Shown here: one piece after another, positions 10,980 to 32,887 of the stretch
How the letters are laid out: each line of letters begins with the position of its first letter
How positions within the stretch are numbered: the stretch's first letter is position 1
Source: Chloroflexota bacterium
GTDB taxonomy: Bacteria > Chloroflexota > UBA11872 > VXNJ01
NCBI GenBank assembly: GCA_026707405.1
Contig: JAPOWW010000003.1
Location: 310,001 to 374,000, forward strand
Reading direction: 5' to 3'
DNA length: 64,000 nt
Translations under genes and position numbers: made by a program
The notes under the pieces: generated by a model
The model's database searches: none
Seen by the model: the letters and a program-made list of their open reading frames with translations, nothing else
Told to the model about the DNA's origin: nothing

Positions 10980-11996
<1,017 letters not shown>

Positions 11997-12116
11997 TTAG
12001 GTATCGACGGCGGACTGGGCAAAAACCGGCGTTGCCGGGCGGGGAGCGCCGTCGGTCTGTATGACGTTGATAACGCCGAGACGACGCTTTCGTGACTGAT
12101 CCATTTGCGCGGCCGA

Positions 12117-14921
12117 CTACCTTGAGGGCAGGTGGAAGACGTATGGCTCGGAGGGCGTCCACCGAAGCGTTACCTGATCGTCCAAGTACCGGTACTCGAA
12201 GAGTATCAACCGCGCAAGCACTTCAGCGCCTGCACCAAACACGATCTCAAACCGCCTCGTCCCCCGGAAGTCGAACTCGCGAGCGAAACCGGTCTTGAGG
12301 ATTCTGTCGTCCACAGCCTCGGTCACCTTTCGCTCGGCAACGGAGTATTCCAATTCAATAAGGTTGGCGGTGGAAGGCAACCCGAGTCCGCTCACCCAGA
12401 ATCCGTGGGTATTGGATTCCTGGTAAGTGACGCCGGCTTCGAGATCTTGACGGCTGGGATTGGCGAAACTGACTGTGGCGTTGATCTTTTGGCCGTCCGT
12501 GCGGACCCTTACGCTTATGACCGCTCGCGCGTCGGGGGTGACCGATGGGTCGACGTCAGCGTCCGCGTCTAAAGCGCGCGCGAGAACCATCTGTACAGGA
12601 TCGTACCCATGGGGCGTGACGATGACCGTGTAGGGTACTGGATGAAGATCGGACACGATCCAATGTAACCCCGGCGCTATCACATGATCGGTCGATTGTC
12701 CGTCGATCTCGACACTGACGCCAGCGTTGACAGTAGCTGGGTTCAAGACGCCCAGTAATAGGCGGCGGCTGGCTCCAGAGGCTTGGCTCACGGCTTCGGG
12801 ATCGGCTGAAATCGCGTCGGCGGCCACGGTCACGTTGAATGGGCGCGCCCGGGTGAAGAAGTTTGAACCGTCGAATGACTCCGCCACCTGAGCGCCGGCA
12901 ATGATGTCAGCCGGTCGGTATCTGTAGAGTCCCAGCGTCCCCTCAGGCGTGAGGTTTTCACTTCGTAGCAGGCCGTGGATGCGAGCATCCTGGTGGCTGC
13001 CGAGGATTACGAAGTCGGGATCGGGCGGCATCTTCCGAATGTTCTGCGGGAATCCGGGGGTGCGGCCCGCAGTGAAGTAGTTTCGACCGTACATCTCGGC
13101 TCCAAGGATGGCGGCAGTACGGGCATTCCAGAGGTTCTGTGCGTGGGACTCGAAGTGAAACGCCAGCGTGATGGGCCTGAACTTGGTGCTGCCGGGAACC
13201 AGCGGGTATTGGAAGTGAGGCGAGAGTCTTACGGTCGACCCCTCCGGCACGGAGCGGGCGATTTGGCGAGCCTCATGCACGATTTCGCTGGGCATATTCC
13301 ACGTGAACCCCGTCCAATACCATCGGAACGTTTGAACGGTGTTGACAGCCGTGAGGGCGCCCACCAACAGTAGAGCTGCGGCAGTGAGAACCCGCAGGCT
13401 TGCCATCGCACTGTAGCGGGCCATGGCTCGCGGCCAGCCGGCGACAGCGGGGCGGCCGATACTGGTCCAGGCTACCGCAAGACCCGCCGCGAGCAGGGTG
13501 TCGCCGAAGAACGCTACGTAAGACAGCGTCTTGAAGTAGCCGTACTGATATCCGGCGCCTAACCGGACCCAGAGCCCAAACGCGGCGAACGCCGCCGCCA
13601 GAATCAAAGCCGGCAACTTCTCACCGCGCATTTTCGCGAGCGCGACGATCGCCAGCGCTATAAAACCGATCCAGGCCGGCAGTTCGAGGCTTTGAAGGAC
13701 GCTCCACACGTGAGTTCCGAGCAGACGTTCCATGCCCTCTGGATCGTTGACCATATGGTAGGCGCGGATGCCGGTTGAGGTGCGCGGCGCCGGAAACGTG
13801 ATATCGCCCCATGCGTTCCCGAACAGCTTGTTTAGATCGCTGGTAAGGACGGTGAATCGCGCCACTGCCCATTTGGCGAAGTGAAACAGACCCGGGAACC
13901 CGGTGGCGACTCCGACGAGTCCTATGATCAGCACGGTACGGATTCGGTTGGCTCGCGGTTTTTTCGCCAGCGCCAGTATCAAGGCGAGCGGCGCGGCCGT
14001 GGCGGCGAACATGCCGCTTATGCCCCAGAAGTAAGAGGACAACAAACCGGCTGAAACCCAACCGGCCAGTATTGCCGGTCTAACTCCGCCGTGGCGGATA
14101 GCCGCTATCACCGCGCCAAACGCCAGGGGCATGAAAGCGAACGCGACGGTGTGCGGTCCGAAACCCATGGAGCTGAACCAGAGCGGCAGTCCGTTCAGCC
14201 CGTAAAGACCGGCCGCCAGGAATGACGTTCTGGGGCCGAGCTGCAACCCCACCCGCGCAAATAGAAAAACCGAAACCACGGAAAGACCTAGCAGCAGATA
14301 GATCGTCGGCATGTAGGCCAGGAAGGTCGGTGTGCCTGAGACGATGCTCGCGAGCGACAGCGTATAGACGAATCCCTGACCCCTGGCCCGGAAACGATCC
14401 AACTTTTCCAGCTCTAGGAATGGACCGTCGGCCGCGCCGCTCATGGTGGCGGGGGAGTGTTTTAGATGTTCGGCGTAGGGATAGTAGAGGTCTTCATCGA
14501 CGTTGAGCGCCAGAAGCCCCAGCGAGTCGTCCCGCGCGTGTGGCAGAACCGCAATGAAGAAAAGCACTAAACCGACAATGGCGGACAAGGCGATCCAACG
14601 GTCGCCGAAGTCCCAACGGGCGGTCCTGAATCGTCTCAGCGTGACCGCAGCGCCTATAACGCCGAGCCCTAAGAGAAGCCAGAATATCTGGGTCGTGGTG
14701 AGCCAGCGGGCGTTGAAGTAGTAGGAGACGGTTATCGCCAGGAGCCAGCCGACAAACGGGGCGAGAACGAACCAATACCTCGACCAAGGGCCGCCGGACA
14801 GCAGCAGTCGGGCCGGCAGGAGGCCGACAAATCCGAGGAATAAAAGCAGGAGCGCCGCAACCAGCGTCGCCTGACCGAGCACTGTCCATGAAAGTTCTTG
14901 CACGACCTGGAATTCTGACAT
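12117..14921 (-). CDS. Large multi-pass membrane protein, GT-C glycosyltransferase-like
   Basis: This 934-residue protein has about a dozen hydrophobic segments in residues 10-560 and a soluble, beta-rich C-terminal region of about 350 residues. Loop acidic residues after the early membrane segments (ALNVDEDLYYPYAEH) recall the Asp/Glu-containing first periplasmic loop of GT-C transferases that use lipid-linked sugars. It is flanked by a flippase and gmd, so a role in transferring or polymerising sugars at the outer face of the membrane is likely. I cannot name the family with certainty. A second protein of the same size and layout, broken by a stop codon, is encoded at 44272-47067. The start ATG at 14921 is well placed before the first hydrophobic helix. 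Confidence 0.65.
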   Translation of the reverse strand: MSEFQVVQELSWTVLGQATLVAALLLLFLGFVGLLPARLLLSGGPWSRYWFVLAPFVGWLLAITVSYYFNARWLTTTQIFWLLLGLGVIGAAVTLRRFRTARWDFGDRWIALSAIVGLVLFFIAVLPHARDDSLGLLALNVDEDLYYPYAEHLKHSPATMSGAADGPFLELEKLDRFRARGQGFVYTLSLASIVSGTPTFLAYMPTIYLLLGLSVVSVFLFARVGLQLGPRTSFLAAGLYGLNGLPLWFSSMGFGPHTVAFAFMPLAFGAVIAAIRHGGVRPAILAGWVSAGLLSSYFWGISGMFAATAAPLALILALAKKPRANRIRTVLIIGLVGVATGFPGLFHFAKWAVARFTVLTSDLNKLFGNAWGDITFPAPRTSTGIRAYHMVNDPEGMERLLGTHVWSVLQSLELPAWIGFIALAIVALAKMRGEKLPALILAAAFAAFGLWVRLGAGYQYGYFKTLSYVAFFGDTLLAAGLAVAWTSIGRPAVAGWPRAMARYSAMASLRVLTAAALLLVGALTAVNTVQTFRWYWTGFTWNMPSEIVHEARQIARSVPEGSTVRLSPHFQYPLVPGSTKFRPITLAFHFESHAQNLWNARTAAILGAEMYGRNYFTAGRTPGFPQNIRKMPPDPDFVILGSHQDARIHGLLRSENLTPEGTLGLYRYRPADIIAGAQVAESFDGSNFFTRARPFNVTVAADAISADPEAVSQASGASRRLLLGVLNPATVNAGVSVEIDGQSTDHVIAPGLHWIVSDLHPVPYTVIVTPHGYDPVQMVLARALDADADVDPSVTPDARAVISVRVRTDGQKINATVSFANPSRQDLEAGVTYQESNTHGFWVSGLGLPSTANLIELEYSVAERKVTEAVDDRILKTGFAREFDFRGTRRFEIVFGAGAEVLARLILFEYRYLDDQVTLRWTPSEPYVFHLPSR

Positions 14922-14978
14922 TGAATGGTGTCAGGGGCGCGCCGTTTGCGTCAGGCTCACGGATTGGGTTTGGGCGGT

Positions 14979-16325
14979 TCAGATCGGATCACGGGTCGAG
15001 AGTTCGTCGATTGCGACGGGCACAGGGGGGTCCAGAGGACCGTTTTCGGGTTGAACGGTTGGCTGGGTGCGGATTCGCCATCGGATCAGCGCCGCCGCGA
15101 CTATCGTGAGAAACGCGCACATAGCCGCGCCGCTTGCGATGAGGATCAGCGCGAAGTCGTACGTGGACTCCGCGACGAATACGTACAGAGCAACTTGCAC
15201 AACGGCGATGGGCAGGAGTCCGTAGGCGATCCAATTCCATCCGGCGGCGATTATGAGGTAGGTGAGGAACAGGGCGGTTGTTAGCAGCGCCGTCCCGATG
15301 AGGTATCTCTGCAGGAGGCCAGGATCGGGCGCGTAATTGGCGCCGACCAGGGCGTTGTGGACGAAACCCGGAATGACGAATCCGGCGATAACAGGAATTA
15401 CGGTTATCGCGACGAGGACCGAGGCAGTCTTGGCAACGAAGCCGGGCTGGAGTACGCCACCTGCGAAAACGTGACGAAAGCGGGGCAGCAAAAGCAGTCC
15501 CAGGACAAATCCGGCGTAGAAGATGACCCTTCCCGCGAGGGCGGCGGCTGAAAACGACTCCATGGGAGTGTCGGGCAGCCGGCTGTTGGCGATCACTACG
15601 TCGATCGCCTGAACGCCGAAGATCGACAGTGTCGCCGGCACGGACCGAAGCTGTTCTCGGAGTGTAGCCCAAAGGCTTTCACGGACCTCGCCCTTCGATG
15701 GGGAGTTTGGCAGCAGTAACCAGATGGCGAGCACCGTGGCCACCACGTAGCCGAAGGCGAAGCCGGCGGTGGCGCCCGCCACGCCGAATCCGAAGGCCAC
15801 GAGCGCCACAGCGAGGACCACTCGCAGTCCCGCTTCGGCAAGCATCACCCATCCAAGCACGCTGAACCGTTGGGCGCCCTGGAGCGCTCCGCGAAACGCG
15901 GAGAGCACCAACGAGAGACAGAACGTTACCGCCAGCCAGGCGAGCACCCAGTTTCCCTCGAAGCCGAAGATCTGCCGGATGCCGGAAGAAAAGATTCCGA
16001 ACAGAGCCACGAGGCTGAGTCCTGCCAATCCGCCGAACGTGGCCGCGCGCAGCGCGAACGGCCAGGCCAGCAGATGGGTTGCGCGTTGAACGATGTGACC
16101 CGTGCCGACTGCGACAGCGGCCTGAAACGCGTTGCCGGGGAACAGCAGAATGGCGATAAAAGAAACGATGGCCAGGACAACGGCGTACTCCTTGGGGTCG
16201 AGCAGCCGGGCCATCGCGAGCTGGTAGACGTAGGAAAGCCCGTTCGCGGACATGGCCAGCACCAGGAAAACGACAGACTGACGCAGCATCGATTGGCGGG
16301 CCATCCAACGCGGACGCCAGGTCAT
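14979..16325 (-). CDS. Polysaccharide flippase (Wzx/MOP superfamily)
   Basis: This 448-residue protein has around 12-14 evenly spaced hydrophobic segments and begins with a typical Wzx-like N-terminus (SVVFLVLAMSANGLSYVYQLAMARLLDPKEYAVV). That pattern is characteristic of the polysaccharide-transport branch of the MOP/MATE superfamily, which flips lipid-linked oligosaccharides across the cytoplasmic membrane. The C-terminal tail is polar and proline-rich. The gene lies 57 nt upstream of the GT-C-like gene on the same strand and shortly downstream of a GT2 transferase, forming a coherent glycan-export block. Confidence 0.78.
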   Translation of the reverse strand: MTWRPRWMARQSMLRQSVVFLVLAMSANGLSYVYQLAMARLLDPKEYAVVLAIVSFIAILLFPGNAFQAAVAVGTGHIVQRATHLLAWPFALRAATFGGLAGLSLVALFGIFSSGIRQIFGFEGNWVLAWLAVTFCLSLVLSAFRGALQGAQRFSVLGWVMLAEAGLRVVLAVALVAFGFGVAGATAGFAFGYVVATVLAIWLLLPNSPSKGEVRESLWATLREQLRSVPATLSIFGVQAIDVVIANSRLPDTPMESFSAAALAGRVIFYAGFVLGLLLLPRFRHVFAGGVLQPGFVAKTASVLVAITVIPVIAGFVIPGFVHNALVGANYAPDPGLLQRYLIGTALLTTALFLTYLIIAAGWNWIAYGLLPIAVVQVALYVFVAESTYDFALILIASGAAMCAFLTIVAAALIRWRIRTQPTVQPENGPLDPPVPVAIDELSTRDPI

Positions 16326-16411
16326 TCGATTCGGCCGTCAGGCGCCGGGAGACCGCAAAACATCTCGGGCATGGCTGGGTGGCGCTTGGAACCCGCTATG
16401 AATGCTGATTC

Positions 16412-17098
16412 TTATCGAATCAAATCGCGAAGCCACTGATACACGTAGCGATGCCAAGTCCTCCGTATGCTGATTTTGGACCGACCCGCGCCTCGCTCGA
16501 ACTCGTGACTGGGCACCTCGGCGATTTTGTAACCTTTCTTGAGAACCTTCATAACCATTTCCTGCTCAATCGTGGTCAAGTTTTCTCTTAGATCCAGATC
16601 GGCTGCTACGCGCTTGCTGATGGATCGGAATCCGTTTTGAGCGTCGGTCAAGCGCACACCGAATCGATAGTTGATTCCAAGCTGGATAATCTGCTGACCG
16701 AACCAGCGAATGAACCGATCAAGGTCGCCGGTCATTTCGTCGCTGCCGCCTCTGGGCCGTGAGCCGACGACCAAATCGGCCTCTCCCTGTCTTATCGGCG
16801 CGACAAGTTTGGGAATGTCGGTGGGTTCGTGCGAAAGGTCCGCGTCGACGAAAACCAGAATATCGCCTGCAGCTTCGCGGATGGCCAGACGCACGGCGTC
16901 GCCCTTGCCTCTGCCATGGTCTTCGATGAGCCTGGCGCCTAATTCAGTTGCGATAGTTGGAGTCGCGTCTTCGGAGCGACCGTCAACCACGAGCACCTCA
17001 TCGGCATACTCCCGCACCGATTCGATTACCTCGCCGACAGTCTGCTCCTCGTTCTTGGCCGGTATGATGACCGATACGCTGGCATCCCGCAGTGGCAT
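16412..17098 (-). CDS. Glycosyltransferase family 2, dolichyl-phosphate-mannose-synthase-like
   Basis: This 228-residue GT-A-fold transferase begins SVIIPAKNEEQTVGEV and has the nucleotide-binding DGRSEDAT, the metal-binding DADLSHEP (DxD) and the acceptor-side motif NGFRSISKR. It closely follows the catalytic domain of polyprenyl-phosphate mannosyl/glucosyl synthases (DPM1-like), which load a single sugar onto a lipid carrier. There is no C-terminal membrane domain, so it is the soluble-type form. Its product would suit the GT-C-like transferase encoded two genes downstream, which would need a lipid-phosphate sugar donor. Confidence 0.8.
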   Translation of the reverse strand: MPLRDASVSVIIPAKNEEQTVGEVIESVREYADEVLVVDGRSEDATPTIATELGARLIEDHGRGKGDAVRLAIREAAGDILVFVDADLSHEPTDIPKLVAPIRQGEADLVVGSRPRGGSDEMTGDLDRFIRWFGQQIIQLGINYRFGVRLTDAQNGFRSISKRVAADLDLRENLTTIEQEMVMKVLKKGYKIAEVPSHEFERGAGRSKISIRRTWHRYVYQWLRDLIR

Positions 17099-26831: not shown

Positions 26832-27389
26832 CTAGCCGCCGGCGCGTTCGGTCAGCAGGTCGTCGACGACCTGGAGTCCCTGGATTATCTCGGGGAGGAG
26901 TTTTACGTGGACGTTAATTCCGTGCTTGCCGGGACGGAGCTTTCCCTTGTCGTCGCGGAAGTGGACGCGGGCGAATGCGTAGTCGTTCTTGTTGAAAGTA
27001 GACAGTCCGATCAGCCATTCATCGCCGTCGGAACGGGGGAGTCGGGAAAACACTTTTACGTTCCCGGGAAGATCGTCCGCCGATAGCTCCGGGGGCGCGG
27101 TCTCCACGGCCATGAGGGCGTTGATTATCGCGGACAGAAGTTCTTCGTGGACATTGATACCGTGCTTGCCGGGCCGGAGCATGTCCTTATCGTCGCGGAA
27201 ATAGGCGCGAGCAAATGCATAGTCAGTGTTGTTGAACTTGGAGACCCCGACCAGCCAATCCTCGCGCCGGTTCTTGGGGATTCTCTGAACGATCTCGACG
27301 TCCTTTGGCAGGTCGTCGGCGGTTATCAGTTTGGTGGATTCGGCCATTTCGCTCGCTTCGCTCAAGTGTCGGGATTCGGAATTGAACAC
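26832..27389 (-). CDS. Tandem PC4-like (transcriptional coactivator p15 fold) protein
   Basis: The 185-residue product consists of two near-identical units set exactly 80 residues apart: DDLP at 25 and 105, YAFARxxFRDDK in both, and RPGKHGINVH at 72-81 and 152-161. The FRDDKxxLRPGKHGI pattern is the core of the PC4/Sub1 fold, whose dimer binds single-stranded or melted DNA. Here two copies in one chain could make an intramolecular dimer. The function in bacteria is uncertain; ssDNA protection or transcription roles are inferred from the family. The start could be GTG at 27389 or ATG at 27347, and neither has a strong ribosome-binding site. Confidence 0.65.
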   Translation of the reverse strand: MFNSESRHLSEASEMAESTKLITADDLPKDVEIVQRIPKNRREDWLVGVSKFNNTDYAFARAYFRDDKDMLRPGKHGINVHEELLSAIINALMAVETAPPELSADDLPGNVKVFSRLPRSDGDEWLIGLSTFNKNDYAFARVHFRDDKGKLRPGKHGINVHVKLLPEIIQGLQVVDDLLTERAGG

Positions 27390-27493: not shown

Positions 27494-28870
27494 TTAGGAC
27501 GGCTCCAGCTCCCACACCTGCACTCTGCCCAGCGAACCAAGGATCGGGTCGGCGTGCTTGGAGGCGCTGCCGATTCCCGCCACGACCTTGCCCGCGATCT
27601 TAATGAACTGCCCCTTCCGTCCTGAGCGATATACCACCTCGTCGTCGGGAGGAGTCGAAAAGAAATGCGAGCGGCTGATGACTTTCCAACCGGTGTCGCG
27701 AAACAGCTTTTTGGCCTCCCGCCGCGTGAGCGCCTTGAACGGACCGAGGTGGGGATCGGGGGCGAGGGCGTACTCCACGCCCCTGTGGCCTATGGCTTTG
27801 CGGAACTGTTTGAGGATGGAGTAATAGGAGTTGCGGTTAGTGAAGGCGACGACCAGACGTCCCTTGGGGCGGATCAGGTCACGCAGGCGCCTGAGCAATC
27901 GCAACTGCTCGGTTCGCGGCAAGGACTCAAGACGGAAGATACACGTTATGAAGTCGTATGAGACGCCGTTCATGCTGTAGAAGTTGGAGTATTCGACTTC
28001 GGTAACGGAGCGTACGACCCTGGCCCTAATAAATTCGCGGACCTGCTCGGTCATTTCCACGGCGGTGATGTCGGCGTCCGGAAAACTCCGTGAGAACGCT
28101 TCGGTGTATATCCCCGTGCAAGGCAATACGTCGAGCCACTGGCATTCGCCGGTCGGGGACCACCGGCGAATCGCCGCGTTGACCGCCTCGAACTCCGAGA
28201 TTATGGGCTTGTTGTAATGGGCGCCGTTGCGAATTTTGGCCATCTGGAAATGGCTAATCTGATCCATCGACCACACGTTGGGGTCTTCCTCGAACGGCCA
28301 GTGACCGGTCCCCTTGTAATGGTTGAAGTGGAGCACGGAGTCGATCGAGCGACGCCGCGGCGCGCGCAGATTGAGCTTGTAGTAGCCGAAGAGAACGAGC
28401 GCAAGGACGGTCTGCTCCTCCGGAAGCCGCAGGAGCCTCTTGATCCGGCCCACGTTACCGAGCGTGTCCACCCAGCAGCCGCCCAGTCCCAAATCGTGTG
28501 CCATCAACATCATGTTCTGAACGGCCGCCGACGCGCTCTGCACCCAGGCGAGGTTCTCGCGCGTGTACTTGTGCGAATACGTTACGAAAATTGCGACCGG
28601 CGCAAGAGTGATGAACCTAGTCTCTTCGGCTATCTGGTCGATCAGCTCCGGGTCGTCGACGGCGATGAACTCCCACAGCTGCAGATTGCAGGCGCTTGGG
28701 GCGTAGCGGGCGGCGTCGATGATTTGGTCGACGACCTCGCGCGGAACGGGGTCTTTCTTGAACTTGCGTACCGTTCGACGGCTGAAAATTGCTTCTTGAA
28801 GTTCCAACTGAATCTTGCTTCGTAGAATGGCCAGCCAAAGATTTTGCCTAATATAGCGTCTGATTTCCAC
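27494..28870 (-). CDS. Nitroreductase-methyltransferase fusion protein
   Basis: This 458-residue protein joins two domains. Residues about 25-190 are a nitroreductase-fold FMN domain, starting AIFSRRTVRKFKKDP with the FMN-phosphate arginines, then AARYAPSACNLQLWEF and AHDLGLGGCWVDTLG. Residues about 225-420 look like a class I SAM methyltransferase: a degenerate motif I WLDVLPCTGIYTEAF, then ITAVEMTEQ, YDFITCIFRLESL and RPKGRLVVAFTNRNS. Nitroreductases usually stand alone, so the fusion is unusual. It suggests coupled reduction and methylation of one small molecule, but the substrate is unknown. The frame is continuous, with no sign of a sequencing join. Confidence 0.7.
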   Translation of the reverse strand: MEIRRYIRQNLWLAILRSKIQLELQEAIFSRRTVRKFKKDPVPREVVDQIIDAARYAPSACNLQLWEFIAVDDPELIDQIAEETRFITLAPVAIFVTYSHKYTRENLAWVQSASAAVQNMMLMAHDLGLGGCWVDTLGNVGRIKRLLRLPEEQTVLALVLFGYYKLNLRAPRRRSIDSVLHFNHYKGTGHWPFEEDPNVWSMDQISHFQMAKIRNGAHYNKPIISEFEAVNAAIRRWSPTGECQWLDVLPCTGIYTEAFSRSFPDADITAVEMTEQVREFIRARVVRSVTEVEYSNFYSMNGVSYDFITCIFRLESLPRTEQLRLLRRLRDLIRPKGRLVVAFTNRNSYYSILKQFRKAIGHRGVEYALAPDPHLGPFKALTRREAKKLFRDTGWKVISRSHFFSTPPDDEVVYRSGRKGQFIKIAGKVVAGIGSASKHADPILGSLGRVQVWELEPS

Positions 28871-32314: not shown

Positions 32315-32887
32315 ATGGAAGTCCTCGAGGCAATACGCACGCGGCGCAGCGTTAAGCGCGTTACCGACCAGTCACCGTCGCGTCGCGACATCGAGGAAAT
32401 GCTGGAAGCGGCGCTATGGGCACCCAATCATCACTTCACGGAGCCGTGGCAGTTTCACGTCATCGCCGGGGATGAGCGCGCCAAGATGAGCGAGCACGTG
32501 GCCGCAGCGATAGAGCGCGAGTCGATGCCAGGCGACGAAGCCGCAGCGGCTGCGGCCACGAAAGCCAGAGGCGCGCTCTTGCGGGCGCCCGTGGTGATAG
32601 CGGTGACGGTGTGCGTGAGCGACGACCCGGTGCTTGCCCTGGAGGACTACGCGGCGGCTTGCTGCGCGATCCAGAATCTGACGCTTGCGGCCTGGTCGAG
32701 GGGTATCGGAAGCAAATGGAGAACGGGCGCCATGTGTCTCTACGCCTCGGCCAAAGAGTACATGGGCGTGAGCCAGGACGACTGCGTCGTCGGTTACATC
32801 TATCTGGGCTATCCGGGGCGAAACGCCGTTGGCCAGGGACGGGAGCGGAGCCAGGATTGCATTCGCTGGCTCGGCTGGGACGAATAG
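32315..32887 (+). CDS. Nitroreductase-family FMN protein
   Basis: This 190-residue nitroreductase-fold flavoprotein starts MEVLEAIRTRRSVKRVTDQ with the FMN-binding arginines, then ALWAPNHHFTEPWQFHVI, and has ENLxL-like packing in CAIQNLTLAAWSRGIGSKW near the C-terminus. It should bind FMN as a homodimer and reduce quinones, nitro compounds or enones with NAD(P)H. It is a separate gene from the nitroreductase fused to a methyltransferase at 27494-28870, and the two share only the general fold. GGAGATGG lies upstream of the ATG. Confidence 0.85.
   Translation: MEVLEAIRTRRSVKRVTDQSPSRRDIEEMLEAALWAPNHHFTEPWQFHVIAGDERAKMSEHVAAAIERESMPGDEAAAAAATKARGALLRAPVVIAVTVCVSDDPVLALEDYAAACCAIQNLTLAAWSRGIGSKWRTGAMCLYASAKEYMGVSQDDCVVGYIYLGYPGRNAVGQGRERSQDCIRWLGWDE

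Follow-up and report, generated by a model that had tools for sequence, protein, structure and literature searches.

In the available parts of the published reports, two archaeal systems offer precedents for the role proposed here for the gene analyzed. The genes for AglP, a methyltransferase, and AglQ, a toroid-like isomerase, are transcribed together in Haloferax volcanii, and both products are concerned with one and the same uronic acid in a lipid-linked glycan (PMC3827465). Agl32 from Halobacterium is a glucuronyl C5-epimerase of a lipid-linked glycan, structurally nearest to cellobiose 2-epimerase (PMC13308652). Flavin oxidases of the nitroreductase superfamily can desaturate their substrates and occur as fusions, according to the accessible text of PMC10404671. 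A nitroreductase of unknown function is reported as raised in archaeal biofilms, and no glycan link is drawn in the available text of that source. Our literature search found no paper on the joining of a nitroreductase and a methyltransferase in one chain, nor on a nitroreductase in glycan clusters. In the window, the whole 64-kb stretch of Chloroflexota DNA that was analyzed, one gene encodes such a fusion.

Both domains are encoded by one unbroken ORF on the minus strand, at positions 27494 to 28870 of the window. The first-pass annotation had described a single chain of 458 residues; the single chain holds, with Pfam matches to both a nitroreductase and a methyltransferase in one frame, but 21 of those 458 codons are probably untranslated. 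Judging from comparison with related genes, translation almost certainly starts at the TTG at position 28807 and not at the GTG at 28870, giving a gene at 27494..28807 (437 codons plus stop) and a protein of 437 residues. The TTG was preferred because the copy from the same genus (L037) carries an indel and an in-frame TGA upstream of it, in the stretch corresponding to 28808..28870, with the TTG itself kept, and because the relatives from the same order have starts at the place aligned with it. Gene calls in our scripts were crude, being the longest or GC-weighted ORFs.

In the Pfam search, the fusion protein matched Nitroreductase PF00881 (E = 5e-32; 111.8 bits versus a cut-off of 23.5), Methyltransf_23 (32.6 bits versus 27), and Methyltransf_11 (26.5 bits versus 21.2). 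None of the NCBIfam equivalogs reached its curated cut-off with this protein (BluB, 71.8 versus 150; NfsA-type PRK10765, 55.2 versus 223), which, together with the lack of a paper on the architecture, agrees with the first-pass view that the pairing is not a standard one. An AlphaFold2 model built from an alignment of 23 fusions had a mean pLDDT of 85.7 and a pTM of 0.78, and both predicted folds were complete. Residues 1 to 166 (28310..28807, minus strand) form the predicted nitroreductase-fold (FMN) domain, which matched solved nitroreductases with a Z score of about 21 (up to 21.3 for 3e39, with 164 aligned residues and an rmsd of 2.7). R10, R11, and R14 are kept in 22 of the 23 fusions and N41 and Q43 in all 23; we take these five to be the FMN-contacting residues. 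The linker, which had been called short, runs to about 36 residues (residues 167 to 202; 28202..28309, minus strand), is conserved in the alignment of relatives, and holds the motif IRNGxxYNKP.

Residues 203 to 437 (27497..28201, minus strand) form the predicted class I methyltransferase-fold domain. Its model is close to SAM- and SAH-bound structures, with Z scores of 20.9 for CmoM (8joz; 226 aligned residues, rmsd of 3.6), 19.6 for METTL6 (7ezg), and 19.0 for DhpI (3ou2). Motif I had been noted as degenerate from this one protein, and the family alignment extends the observation to all 45 fusions. DVLPCTG stands in place of DxGxGxG at residues 226 to 232 (28112..28132, minus strand), and GxGxG is intact in 0 of 45 fusions: the first Gly is missing in every one and the second in 41 (L131 to L134 have it), whereas the third is kept throughout. 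E251 (28055..28057, minus strand), where strand 2 of the methyltransferase fold ends, is acidic in 22 of 23 fusions; this position is presumably the ribose-binding site. The predicted folds are complete and the FMN-type residues are kept, but the glycine loop for SAM is lost. Methyl transfer is in doubt because these glycines are missing.

Purifying selection acts on both halves of the protein. Between the window gene and the same-genus copy, dN/dS was 0.019 for codons 1 to 160 and 0.035 for the linker and second domain. Among six genes from a neighboring genus of the same order, the values were 0 to 0.17 for the first domain and 0.02 to 0.22 for the second, counted over the ten pairs with computable dS, since dS was saturated and gave no ratio in the five pairs that included L003. 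Decay of the methyltransferase half is ruled out by these ratios.

Judged from sequence, the fusion is a conserved, uncharacterized two-domain family. In the host class, the full-length fusion was found in 21 of 41 genomes, together with one gene split over two contigs and one fragment at a contig edge. A set of 400 Chloroflexota genomes returned the same 21 fusions and the split one, and the other 40 matching genomes had the first domain only. Elsewhere, the fusion occurred in 16 of 294 genomes of Planctomycetota, 8 of 279 in the phylum of a woesearchaeal genome, 2 of 297 in the phylum of a genome titled Desulfosudis, and 1 of 2, 1 of 82, and 1 of 23 in three further groups, where each count includes a central genome that was picked for having the fusion. 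Among 54 named loci, those with both domains came from genomes titled Chloroflexi or Chloroflexota (one of them Thermoflexus), Planctomycetota, Hydrothermarchaeum, Woesearchaeota, Desulfosudis, Nitrospinae, and one simply bacterium. The architecture recurs, thinly spread, in Chloroflexota, Planctomycetota, Thermodesulfobacteriota, Nitrospinota, and several archaeal lineages. A viral origin was rejected, since viral contigs gave three pattern matches, none of them related.

A tree of the nitroreductase domain, built without nine loci from the window's order that are nearly identical (L028 to L034, L036, and L048), did not establish a strictly single origin of the fusion. The label "fused" needs four changes, of which three are forced by starred branches, and the base of the tree is unresolved. 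One of the four changes comes from L037_4, which was labeled nitroreductase-only though its contig ends inside the gene. The fused L053 groups with nitroreductase-only rows.

The genes around the fusion in several other lineages point to surface glycans. The discovery set comprised 18 fusion loci, all from outside the order to which the window belongs. In 10 of these, the fusion adjoins a protein of the family c87, whose assignment as a toroid rests on a predicted model: an (alpha/alpha) toroid with a beta-sandwich, for which Foldseek matched PL17 lyase, chondroitin AC lyase, and dermatan sulfate epimerase and the best Z score was 26, to cellobiose 2-epimerases. Proteins of the family c154 adjoin the fusion in L051, L052, L053, and L054, and a CFDR protein lies two genes from the fusion in L049 and at the other fusion copy in L054; these two families were assigned as toroids on weak hits to several (alpha/alpha) families in Pfam and on a mutual profile match. 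L050 has a toroid candidate judged by eye only, and none was found at L041 or L056. Searching the PDB with profiles of c87 and CFDR gave no convincing relative. Glycosyltransferases, flippases, YfhO-type membrane proteins, and radical SAM proteins were also found at the discovery loci.

Because the discovery loci supplied the toroid profiles, only the second sample of loci serves as a test. In this independent set, a toroid-family gene was present at 11 of 22 further fusion loci, namely 4 of 15 in Planctomycetota, 6 of 6 in archaea, and 1 of 1 in the Desulfosudis phylum. The other 11 planctomycete loci had no toroid-family gene nearby; inspected by eye, they had acyl-CoA dehydrogenase-like, HMG-CoA reductase-like, and other unrelated neighbors. 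At 11 of the 20 loci where a toroid gene lies directly downstream of the fusion, a candidate toroid start falls in a 4-base overlap with the fusion's stop, with the overlaps found among c87, CFDR, and the L050 protein. The fusion is thus coupled genomically to a toroid in several lineages.

Some further features of these loci were recorded. The c87 (L039:11281-13221) and CFDR (L060:8326-9954) families are toroid-like and go with nitroreductase genes in both bacteria and archaea; the members that were scanned have mostly no match in Pfam or NCBIfam. Nitroreductase-only relatives at L055, L057, L059, L060, L061, and L065 are also near c154 or CFDR genes, and at L060 a separate methyltransferase gene with an intact GSGTG overlaps the nitroreductase gene. 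L054 has two different fusion genes (L054:2370-3740 and 11609-12883) in a single glycan locus, and each has a toroid family of its own nearby.

In L038, L040, and L046, which belong to other families of the host class, the fusion sits between a hexapeptide transferase and an epimerase- or lyase-like (alpha/alpha)6 toroid in a glycan-assembly locus. The 64-kb window contains no toroid, but the window's genome has a c87 toroid on another contig (G000:C2:207170-208939), surrounded by GT4 genes, a hexapeptide transferase, a YfhO protein, and a flippase. Seven genes there (four GT4-type glycosyltransferases, the hexapeptide transferase, the toroid, and YfhO) are reciprocal best hits of the L038, L040, and L046 locus; the flippases of the two loci do not pair in this way. 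The hexapeptide transferase and toroid genes are adjacent, with ORFs overlapping by 4 bases and no fusion between them, so that the window's fusion lies outside an otherwise shared locus. Among 11 hand-picked genomes of the class, c87 was found in all 9 with the fusion; of the two without it, G005 has a weaker, more distant c87 match and G025 has none. Since G005 has the glycan locus and a distant toroid without the fusion, the fusion is not essential to the locus.

Within the window itself, the gene next to the fusion (26832-27389, minus strand) encodes a protein of 185 residues in which two stretches resemble PC4 (PF02229), and a stand-alone nitroreductase-family gene (PF00881) lies about 3.5 kb from the fusion (32315-32887, plus strand). 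A nitroreductase-type gene is also present on the fusion's contig in L037. On the minus strand, positions 12117-17098 hold a GT2 gene and genes for a flippase-looking protein of 448 residues and a protein of 934 residues, neither of the latter with a Pfam match; this is perhaps a second glycan locus.

The reading we prefer, with a probability of roughly 0.6, is that the fusion is a two-domain enzyme acting in the assembly of lipid-linked surface glycans together with the toroid, glycosyltransferases, and a flippase. A nitroreductase-superfamily FMN oxidoreductase, joined to a methyltransferase fold with a non-canonical SAM loop, would modify a sugar, perhaps a uronic acid, of the lipid-linked glycan. 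The epimerase- or lyase-like toroid and the fusion would share one sugar as their target, probably a uronic acid; the flavin domain may oxidize, desaturate, or reduce it, and the second domain may bind SAM and methylate it or, failing that, bind the substrate. Counting against this reading are the absence of a toroid from the window and from the vicinity of 11 of 15 further planctomycete fusions, the glycan locus of G005 that does without a fusion, the missing motif I glycines, and the flippases that are not each other's best hits. More doubtful is the stronger proposal that the fusion and toroid work as a single machine, common to bacteria and archaea, for a flavin-dependent step not described before: desaturation or reduction of a uronate ring, linked to epimerization and methylation, on lipid-linked glycans.

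A serious competitor, though with less than even odds, keeps the role in glycan assembly and holds that the methyltransferase-fold half no longer methylates and serves as a binding, regulatory, or scaffold domain, leaving the flavin half alone catalytic. The absence of the first motif I Gly from 45 of 45 fusions and of the second from 41 of 45 speaks for it, as do the six nitroreductase-only relatives near toroid genes, which lack the fused domain. It is opposed by the third Gly, kept in 45 of 45, the acidic residue 251 in 22 of 23, the complete predicted fold near SAM- and SAH-bound structures, and the strong purifying selection. A general metabolic role in lipid, cofactor, or detoxification chemistry, in which the placement in glycan loci would be incidental or a side use in some lineages, seems to us unlikely: different toroid families adjoin the fusion in bacteria and archaea, frequently with 4-base overlaps, and the window's genome retains the orthologous glycan locus. 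It would fit the lack of a toroid neighbor in the window and at 11 of 15 additional planctomycete loci, as well as the acyl-CoA dehydrogenase-like and B12-dependent mutase-like genes near some planctomycete fusions. The first-pass suggestion that a natural product or xenobiotic is reduced and then methylated follows from the domain names alone and is improbable. The homologues in other families of the class lie in a surface-glycan locus that has its ortholog in the window's genome, and no natural-product or catabolic cluster was found in the scanned parts of the window or in the other loci read. A frame error or assembly artifact merging two genes, which the first-pass annotation had raised against its own reading, has practically no chance of being the explanation and is ruled out by the identical single frame in dozens of independent genomes from several phyla.

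To our knowledge, nitroreductase-type flavin chemistry is not a known part of glycan assembly. On the preferred reading of a glycan-assembly enzyme, the fusion and its toroid partners would point to an unrecognized sugar-modifying step for which candidate genes can now be named. The fusions also make up a family whose methyltransferase fold lacks the glycine loop and is still under selection.

Compared with known systems, the first domain shares the whole fold of the nitroreductase superfamily (4dn2, 8cqt, and 3e39; BluB, NfsA, and cyclodipeptide oxidase branches) and its RRxxR, AP(S/T)xCNxQ, and RR motifs; the fusion differs in having a methyltransferase partner and in scoring below every NCBIfam equivalog cut-off. 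The second domain resembles class I SAM methyltransferases such as CmoM, METTL6, and DhpI in its complete predicted Rossmann fold (Z scores of 19 to 21) and the acidic residue after strand 2, whereas their GxGxG motif I is kept in no fusion examined. The ThiF-FDO fusions (Rv1355c and OxzB), as described in the accessible part of PMC10404671, likewise combine a nitroreductase-type flavin domain with another enzyme domain in a single polypeptide, but the partner domain differs, and so does the pathway, that of acyl-oxazolones. By analogy, the fusion and toroid resemble the pairing of a methyltransferase and a toroid-type isomerase in AglP-AglQ (PMC3827465), and the proposed toroid partner would be like Agl32, a toroid C5-epimerase on a lipid-linked glycan (PMC13308652); the archaeal proteins are separate, and no flavin domain is mentioned in the available text of these two reports. 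The toroid partner that an AglP/AglQ-type uronate modification would call for, beside the fusion or in the same genome, is encoded in the window's genome by the c87 gene on another contig. The fusion may therefore add a redox step to sugar modification of the AglP/AglQ and Agl32 type.
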